34,641 bases of DNA from Clostridia bacterium. Its GTDB lineage: Bacteria > Bacillota > Clostridia > Saccharofermentanales > UBA5734. The stretch covers positions 1 through 34,641 of the forward strand of contig SABL01000014.1 of NCBI GenBank assembly GCA_009928985.1, in the 5' to 3' direction. This document shows positions 32,925 through 34,641 of the stretch, one piece after another (within the stretch, counting starts at the first letter, position 1; each line of letters opens with the position of its first letter). The translations under genes were made by a program, and so were the position numbers. Below the pieces are notes generated by a model. It was not told the origin of the DNA. It saw only the letters and a list, made by a program, of their open reading frames with translations, and made no database searches.

Positions 32925-33959
32925 TTAAAATCCCTGCAGTCTGGTCTCTGGCCCGGGCAGGTCCAGATCATACGCTGGCTTGACCTGAAACGCCTTGCCA
33001 GCTAGCCGGGCGAGTCTTCCCGCGCGAATGTCTGGCGAAAAGACCAGCTGGCAGGCAAAAAGCTGCTGGCGATTCAGGGGCCCCTGGCGTCCTTTAAAAA
33101 AGCGGTTATAGCTATTTCGCCCATATTTGCCATCGCCCAGGAGGGGATGGCCGATATGGGCCAGATGGGCCCGGATCTGGTGCGTCCGTCCGGTGACCAG
33201 CTCCACCTCAAGCTCACAAACCGTTTCGCCTTCCGGACCAAACCCCGGAAAGCGGTGCAAAATGCGGTAGCGGGTGATGACGGGAACATCGCCAGGCCTT
33301 TTTTCATCGTGGATGTAGACCTCGTTCTGGCGGGCCTGTTTTTCCAGAAAGGCTTCAATCTGGTAAAACTCGAGTCCGTCAGATGTCCGGATTTTTTGGC
33401 CAGCCTGTGGCTCGCCCCGGACCAGGCACCGGTACCGTTTCGCGATCTTGCCCAGCTGCATCAGCTCCACGACCACGTTCTGGATGTCCCTGGTACGGGC
33501 CAGGATGATCAACCCACCTGTGTTGCGGTCGAGGCGATGGCACAGGACCAGTCCAGGATCTTTTTGGTCAGACCTGACCTTGTCGATCAGGGTGCCTTCA
33601 TCATCTTCCTGGGCTTTGGCAGTACCATGGACAACGATGCCGGCCATTTTGTTGAGAATGAGCAAGGCATCGTCCTGATACACGACATGGTAAGCGGATT
33701 TGCTTTCTGATGACACAGCCTCGCTCGAGTCGCCCCATTGTCCTTCTGGGTTTGCTTGTTCAGGCAGATACACATCCAGGATATCCCCGGCGAATACTGC
33801 CTGGTCGGCCTGGATCCGGCGCCCATTGAGCCGTACATCCTTGCGGCGCAGCGCTTTGTAGACCTGCGCCGATTTCAGTCCTGGCACTGATCCAGTCAGA
33901 GCAGGGATAACCCGCTTGGTGACCAATTGATCTGTAATGACAATCTGGTGGTGGATCAT
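32925..33959 (-). CDS. RluA-family pseudouridine synthase
   Basis: Isomerises uridines in rRNA (RluC/RluD-like). 344 residues. An N-terminal S4 domain (about 20-75, SAQVYKALRRKDVRLNGRRI) is followed by the catalytic domain: LCHRLDRNTGGLIILARTRD holds the catalytic Asp, and TGRTHQIRAHLAHIGHPLLGDGKYG the C-terminal motif. The frame is open to 34061, but the ATG at 33959 overlaps the upstream gene's stop (ATGA), has AAGGGG just upstream, and gives the normal N-terminus. Target uridine cannot be told from sequence. Confidence 0.93.
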   Translation of the reverse strand: MIHHQIVITDQLVTKRVIPALTGSVPGLKSAQVYKALRRKDVRLNGRRIQADQAVFAGDILDVYLPEQANPEGQWGDSSEAVSSESKSAYHVVYQDDALLILNKMAGIVVHGTAKAQEDDEGTLIDKVRSDQKDPGLVLCHRLDRNTGGLIILARTRDIQNVVVELMQLGKIAKRYRCLVRGEPQAGQKIRTSDGLEFYQIEAFLEKQARQNEVYIHDEKRPGDVPVITRYRILHRFPGFGPEGETVCELEVELVTGRTHQIRAHLAHIGHPLLGDGKYGRNSYNRFFKGRQGPLNRQQLFACQLVFSPDIRAGRLARLAGKAFQVKPAYDLDLPGPETRLQGF

Positions 33960-34381
33960 GGACACCCCTTGCCCTTGAAAACCTGGTCCAGCAACCATTC
34001 GACAAGGCCTGCTGCGACCAGTACCAGCCAAGCCAGGGACCAGCCTCCAGCCAGACCCCAAAGCAGGAAAAACAGGATGGCCACCAGCCAGATGATCAAG
34101 CGCACGATTTCACACGGTAACGTCCGGTGATAGCGAACGGCAATCGACTCCGGAACAGTTCGACCAGAAAGAAGCCGCCAGCGCCGCCAGAATGCTACGG
34201 CGACTGCTGGCAGGAAAATGACCAGCGGCAACAAGGCTACACTCCAGTTGGTGATGAATGCAGTTGAAAGGACTGCAACCAATCCAGTAGCCGCCAGCGC
34301 CAGGCCGGCGACGGTCCAAAGCCTGGCCGCGTAAGCCAGGATGAATGGATCGATGGAATCAGGTGAAAGACGACGCGCCAT
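33956..34381 (-). CDS. Small membrane protein of unknown function
   Basis: 141 residues with about four hydrophobic segments in two hairpins: roughly 20-38, 45-63, 92-110 and 114-132, with a basic RRWRLLSGR loop between. I do not recognise a family. A 4-bp overlap with the rluA-type gene and a -10 element upstream indicate a two-gene operon. AAGGATC precedes the ATG by about ten bases. Confidence 0.75.
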   Translation of the reverse strand: MARRLSPDSIDPFILAYAARLWTVAGLALAATGLVAVLSTAFITNWSVALLPLVIFLPAVAVAFWRRWRLLSGRTVPESIAVRYHRTLPCEIVRLIIWLVAILFFLLWGLAGGWSLAWLVLVAAGLVEWLLDQVFKGKGCP

Positions 34382-34416: not shown

Positions 34417-34445
34417 ATTATACAGCTGGAAGGAGTCTTTATCCA
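34417..34445 (-). promoter_or_regulatory. Promoter for the membrane protein-rluA pair
   Basis: Minus strand TGGATA (34445-34440), 17-bp spacer, TATAAT (34422-34417). The -35 is weak, the -10 perfect. Predicted leader about 29 nt. It starts just beside the structured repeat pair. Confidence 0.55.
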
Positions 34446-34451
34446 TTCAGA

Positions 34452-34517
34452 GGGAGCATCCGGCGGCGAGTTCCTAGAGCCGCGCCAGCGGCGAGGATGT
34501 CTGAGCAAGCCGGATAC
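34452..34517. repeat. Structured GC-rich repeat, copy 1
   Basis: A 66-bp unit, nearly identical to copy 2 (34570-34636); the difference is near the end (gagcaagcc against gagcgtagcc). Inner hairpin GCCGC-gcca-GCGGC and outer arms GCATCCGGC / GCCGGATAC. No coding frame is evident. The 52 bp between copies (34518-34569) show nothing I can name. Confidence 0.85.
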
Positions 34518-34569
34518 CACTCAGGGGGTCCCATCCACCAAGCCCCAATCGTGCCAGAACCGTGGCAGG

Positions 34570-34641
34570 GGGAGCATCCGGCGGCGAGTTCCTAGAGCCG
34601 CGCCAGCGGCGAGGATGTCTGAGCGTAGCCGGATACTCCCC
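34570..34641. repeat. Structured GC-rich repeat, copy 2, at the window edge
   Basis: Second copy at 118-bp offset. Its ends form a 13-bp inverted repeat (34570-34582 with 34628-34640) with one mismatch, enclosing the same inner hairpin. The window ends here, so further copies cannot be excluded. No similar sequence was noticed elsewhere in the window. Confidence 0.85.

Follow-up and report, generated by a model that had tools for sequence, protein, structure and literature searches.

What are the two nearly identical palindromes that lie at the very end of this contig, beside the promoter of an operon, and how did they come to be there? The window, which is the whole stretch of 34,641 nucleotides that we analyzed, is contig C391 in a 433-contig, 3.0-Mb assembly (genome G000). 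Its two 59-nt units, at positions 34448–34506 and 34566–34624, showed 98% identity with a start-to-start offset of 118 bp, as the original prediction had described, and a match as good as that between them was never obtained in shuffled sequences, so that none was expected by chance. On the forward strand, copy 1 of the palindromic element spans positions 34448–34517 and copy 2 positions 34566–34641, where it is truncated by the contig end. The nested stems that had been proposed, namely outer arms, a weak middle stem and a GCCGC/GCGGC hairpin with a GCCA loop, were all present. In copy 1, ATCCGGC (34458–34464) paired with GCCGGAT (34509–34515) in the outer stem, and GCCGC (34479–34483) and GCGGC (34488–34492) formed the apical stem around the loop; the outer 3' arm was incomplete, like those of the internal copies of an array on contig C87. 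The weak middle stem was kept across the family as TCC/GGA. The arms of copy 2, GGGGAG-C-ATCCGGC and GCCGGAT-A-CTCCCC, were longer, contained the single mismatch noted previously and were cut by the contig end. The conserved core occupied positions 34471–34497 in copy 1 (TTCC-TAGA-[GCCGC GCCA GCGGC]-GA-GGA) and 34589–34615 in copy 2, both on the forward strand. RNA folding compared with dinucleotide shuffles gave z = -3.5 and -3.7 for the two window units, and z of -6 to -10 for better-paired copies elsewhere. The spacer between the copies (34518–34565, forward strand) contained CCACCAAGCCCCAATCGTGC at 34535–34554, and a segment resembling it was found immediately 5' of the full copies at C87 and C198 of G000 and at C99 and C252 of the sister genome G003; it was absent next to the copies of G002.

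The position of copy 2 at the window edge had been taken as a sign that a dispersed repeat broke the assembly. Consistent with this, the last 25 bases of the window were identical to the end of contig C297, in which the 3' arm of copy 2 runs on as CTGCCACTCC and is followed by the -35 box TTGACC of ddl. Contig C297 begins with this gene, a D-Ala-D-Ala ligase identified by Pfam, preceded by the promoter TTGACC-17-TAAACT. In G003 both flanks were joined across one copy in a single contig; together with the C297 overlap, this indicated that copy 2 is a real place. An assembly duplication or terminal artefact was ruled out as the source of copy 2, the flanks and the copies recurring in sister genomes. 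How many tandem units the window really has is uncertain and cannot be certified in a 433-contig assembly.

On the window side of the pair, a sigma-70-like promoter (TGGATA-17-TATAAT) was located at 34417–34445 on the reverse strand, and copy 1 starts 3 bp upstream of its -35 box. This promoter serves an operon whose first gene (33956–34381, reverse strand) encodes a 141-aa predicted membrane protein with no Pfam match, and which continues with an RluA-type RNA pseudouridine synthase (PF00849; 32925–34061, reverse strand), the true start of which probably lies downstream of that listed for the ORF. Since the ddl promoter lies on the C297 side and the operon promoter on the window side, the hairpin pair fills the gap between divergent promoters, one for the membrane-protein/pseudouridine-synthase operon and the other for the D-Ala-D-Ala ligase. 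The units were thus intergenic and adjacent to an operon promoter, as anticipated, and in fact two promoters flanked them.

A search of the unit against this genome and its relatives, the check that had been suggested, recovered dispersed copies in both. BLAST matches numbered 8 in the own genome and 3–4 each in G002 and G003, and there were none in G001 or G004. Besides the window, the copies in G000 were located at C87 (three tandem copies and a 3' half copy), at C198 and at the end of C297, and copies also occupied orthologous places in the two sister species. The ddl locus bears a copy in G000, G002 and G003, which indicated that the copies are mainly inherited vertically; in G002 this copy lies on the operon side and is separated from ddl by other repeats. 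The C198 locus was empty in G001, and the L21 locus in both G001 and G002, so that gains or losses do occur. The element is thus dispersed in the genus and retained at orthologous loci, with empty sites, and the case for its mobility rests on this copy distribution and on presence or absence at orthologous sites. The 3' arm stopped just before a TTGAC -35 box at C87, at the L21 locus of G003 and at the window/ddl locus, and before a similar box, ATGACA, at C198. In the C87 array and in a feo array of G426 (L299), only the last copy had a full 3' arm, and copy 1 of the window likewise had an incomplete one.

The 3' half copy at C87 supplies the terminal codons (RASGEDV*) of a 4HBT thioesterase gene (36 identical nt). 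This ORF (L016:2554–2985 in C87 of G000, and also C107 of G002 and C125 of G003) has the same palindrome-derived end in the three species, and the 3' half of a palindrome seems to have become the C-terminus and stop codon of the protein. GED[VA]* gene ends were also considered as a sign of stop codons donated by the core: the thioesterase example was real, and a similar gene end at the L21 locus of G001 looked like chance. Just downstream of the C87 array, the ribosomal protein L20 leader of Rfam was matched below threshold (L016:3406–3528; 50.8 bits, cut-off 58.7). Two more core matches in the own genome, at C252 (11488–11519) and C324 (9090–9118), had different arms; the one at C252 comes after an EF4/LepA-like gene and before a T-run, and differs from the window type.

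The palindromic form, the dispersal and the alike boundaries of the copies in the window genus are also features of a MITE, that is, a non-autonomous DNA transposon with terminal inverted repeats and target-site duplications, which had been among the initial suggestions. Against this, the arms serving as terminal repeats were not conserved over the family, filled and empty sites compared in pairs revealed no direct duplication of the target, and a cognate transposase was not found. We therefore regard a MITE as highly improbable. As separate observations, G002 contains another repeat family, MITE-like and with termini resembling GG[TC]TCTTTGCTTNTTNCCGTGAAA (L055, L056, L057 and L309), which adjoins the palindromes and seems to have displaced their flanks at the ddl and C198 loci. 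In G004, two unlike palindrome types are paired about 300 bp apart at several sites (L051 on C5 and L052 on C32) and adjoin tandem AACGGATGGG-type repeats, which suggests a composite repeat unit.

Dispersed imperfect palindromes at gene ends could also be GTAG-type REPs or REPINs moved in trans by a host RAYT, an IS200-like tyrosine transposase, and G000 does have two Y1_Tnp genes of RAYT-like length. However, no copy adjoined either gene, and Y1_Tnp matches, present in 13 of the 41 element-bearing genomes and 18 of the 77 others, showed no clear association with the element; they were absent from the element-rich genomes G031, G045, G053, G058, G064, G100, G110 and G004. On these counts dependence on a RAYT is unlikely, and another IS200-type transposase as partner is unsupported; the original prediction had proposed to look for a RAYT-like or other transposase. 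Nor did the aligned copies have a GTAG tag at a fixed place: GTAGCCGG, which window copy 2 shares with one of the C87 copies, sits inside the 3' arm, where the other copies read AAGCCGG. A RAYT-driven REP is, in our judgment, very improbable. At C235 of G000 (L019, 2290–2420), tandem GGGGTCAGTGGTCGGACATCGTTCGACACTCATTCCGGAACC-like repeats were found directly after an IS200-like transposase gene.

A covariance model built from ten full copies (R1) picked up diverged relatives in other species and genera, in which the core was the same and the arms were different. A second model, of the core (R2), was the basis for order- and class-wide counts. The core is 25–30 nt long, TTCC-RCA-[stem of 5 bp or more]-GA-GGA, and lies at the tip of a long hairpin; the order-wide consensus was TTCCGCAG-stem-CGAGGA, and the window copies read TAGA in place of GCA. 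Of the 118 genomes of the order, 41 had R2 matches (E <= 0.01; rough E-values), with 1–16 copies each and at least 62 in G098; some single weak matches may be false. In a class-wide sample, 7 of 291 genomes matched (E <= 0.001); five belonged to this order and the remaining two to a single other family, the family and genus groupings being tool-assigned labels. The window cores themselves were weak against the order-wide model (28.5 bits, E 7e-4). Covariation was evident in the core model, the relatives sharing the core together with a covarying apical stem: 15 cells had both sides changed, compared with 4.1 expected, which was above all 500 shuffles and all slid controls. The compensatory changes that the original prediction had suggested looking for were present in a strongly palindromic element. 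At the tested loci no Rfam family matched the element at gathering or permissive E-values (only tRNAs, the sub-threshold L20 leader and chance matches appeared), and we found no published name for the core in the open-licence literature. Searches for similar DNA in phages or plasmids found none, and an origin from a virus or plasmid was rejected; the sole pattern match in a viral contig (L305) was stemless and due to chance. A degenerate pattern search for the family was also abandoned, yielding mostly stemless chance matches in two high-GC genomes.

To place the hairpins relative to genes, 115 copies with outer arms were compared with gene calls from a simple home-made codon-usage finder and ARAGORN. 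Among the f2 and f5 copies, 53 had a gene 3' end within 40 nt solely on the 3' side of the core, compared with 8 that had one solely on the opposite side (p = 3e-9); 18 of the f2 neighbours were tRNAs of several kinds. The median gap between hairpin and gene end was about -5 nt, which means that the hairpins often overlap the gene end. This preference held in f2 and f5, and not in the window subfamily, whose copies are located upstream of promoters. Gene-sense U-tracts (at least 7 of 8) followed 19 of the 54 f2 copies that abut a gene end, compared with 7.7% in shuffles. Being enriched though not universal, they suggested that part of the f2 copies are probably terminators. In the window's family (f1), a U-tract occurred at 1 of 25 copies. 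Since the window-genus copies are nearly without U-tracts and lie upstream of promoters, a terminator role in relatives is not simply transferable to the window, and the window copies are probably no ordinary terminators.

Could the whole family consist of ordinary intrinsic terminators, with arms evolved locally and a shared tip from a common ancestor? The position just past stop codons and tRNA 3' ends, the A-rich 5' and T-rich 3' arms, the U-tracts in about a third of cases, and the ordinary terminators carried by some orthologous tRNA loci without the core would all agree with this. However, the arms average about 22 aligned pairs, longer than in usual terminators, the pairing at 21 of 54 loci takes in 4 nt or more of the gene or tRNA, and both the promoter-upstream dispersal in the window genus and the tandem arrays would be left unexplained. 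We consider this reading quite improbable. The element resembles intrinsic terminators in its hairpin directly after a gene and in the U-tract of part of the f2 copies, and differs from them in its longer arms, in a conserved core with an asymmetric internal loop and in the lack of a U-tract in the window genus.

The arms vary by locus and yet remain self-complementary, the pairing score having a median of 34 within a locus and 12 across loci. At feoA/feoB loci without the element (L280–L283), which are empty in several genomes, the two genes almost abut; at filled loci the native hairpin arm holds the feoA stop codon, the other arm is an inverted copy, and the arms covary across species. At the tRNA-Pro locus of G400 (L290), similar arms are kept and the core is missing. 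At C198 and ddl both arms are rich in G or C, so that these two loci by themselves do not reveal the native arm. This pattern fits inverted copying of a flank followed by quasipalindrome homogenisation, template switching at quasipalindromes being a known process that homogenises arms (PMC8604942, PMC7202029); the fit is no proof, because a terminator stem selected gradually could produce some of the same features. In its strongest form, the core would be a self-propagating hairpin tip of 25–30 nt. It would reach gene ends by moving or being copied there, and would make its long arms as inverted copies of the flanking DNA through fold-back template switching; each locus would obtain its specific, potential-terminator hairpin, and the window copies would go back to a single such event, the product of which was dispersed in its entirety afterwards. 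We hold this extended version to be doubtful.

The conserved unpaired core and the covarying stems may instead reflect a functional structured RNA, in which the TCC-RCA/GA-GGA internal loop and a variable apical stem form a motif recognized by a protein or nuclease at the 3' ends of mRNAs and tRNA operons, the element being selected and not mobile. The orientation bias toward gene ends would favor it, as would the retention at feoA and tRNA loci, where the arms changed in a compensatory manner, and the excess of G.T over A.C arm mismatches in the window's family (20 vs 7). In f2, in contrast, this bias was small (23 vs 15) and did not favor the transcript strand, so that the mismatches as a test of the strand under selection were suggestive in f1 only. 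Closely related genomes differed in whether they had the element, and the almost identical arms that recur at several places in G098 and in the window genus point to copying. None of the window copies sits at a gene 3' end, and Rfam gave no match. For the structured-RNA role raised in the original prediction, covariation is suggestive only, as homogenisation of DNA arms could also give covariation. A selected, immobile RNA motif seems to us unlikely.

Among described elements, the closest kind is the REP class, especially the CGTC REPs, which include dRS3 of Neisseria and RPE-4 and RPE-6 of Rickettsia and were found in five phyla, Firmicutes not among them (Di Nocera et al. 2013, PMC3733652). 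Like the present element, CGTC REPs are small dispersed palindromes, located mostly no more than about 20 bp from ORF 3' ends in unidirectional or convergent gaps and sometimes over ORF ends, with no link to a transposase. CGTC REPs alone have an unpaired CGTC-type tag, stems of 8–9 bp, loops of 4–5 nt and a CCA-type tail, whereas the element here has no tag, a TTCC-RCA/GA-GGA core within a long hairpin, and locus-specific arms; the CGTC tag (or TGTC/CCTC), the 8–9 bp stem and the CCA-type tail were absent in the aligned copies. GTAG REPs and REPINs with a RAYT, known from Pseudomonas and E. coli, are likewise dispersed palindromes near gene 3' ends and sometimes supply stop codons (PMC3733652), but the present element is without the GTAG tag and without association with a Y1 transposase. 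Mitochondrial double-hairpin and repetitive hairpin-forming elements (PMC2800124, PMC4478555) are also short hairpin-forming intergenic repeats that have been proposed to be mobile; they are set apart by being organellar and, as far as is known, unrelated in sequence. Multiple dispersed intergenic palindromes per genome, which define REP-like elements in the broad sense, were found here, with the core matches of G098 as an example. The family is unlisted and is filed as a REP-like variant belonging to neither tagged REP super-family, because the tags defining both are missing.

Taken together, the REP-like reading of the original prediction was largely right for an intergenic, assembly-breaking palindrome dispersed in the genome and its relatives. 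With moderate confidence, we interpret the window as two tandem copies of an untagged REP-like palindrome whose related families, kept vertically at gene and tRNA ends, probably serve in part as terminators. In those families the hairpin mostly sits directly after the gene or tRNA 3' end, with the gene end facing the core's 3' side, and would act partly as an intrinsic, often two-way, terminator or as a 3'-end barrier. One GC-rich version, arms included, spread in the window genus to a few intergenic sites immediately 5' of -35 boxes, with tandem duplication at two of them and mainly vertical inheritance thereafter. If the window copies work at all, they most likely form a passive structured boundary, an RNA hairpin or DNA cruciform, between the divergent promoters. 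The mechanism of copying, the termination and this boundary role are what we infer from the sequences.

CGTC REPs had raised the question of how palindromes spread without a dedicated transposase (PMC3733652). The present family, from anaerobic Eubacteriales, has a core that is fixed, arms that are specific to each locus, and orthologous sites both with and without a copy; it makes this question testable, and if the arms are inverted copies of the flank, the process would be a route by which bacteria gain new terminators.
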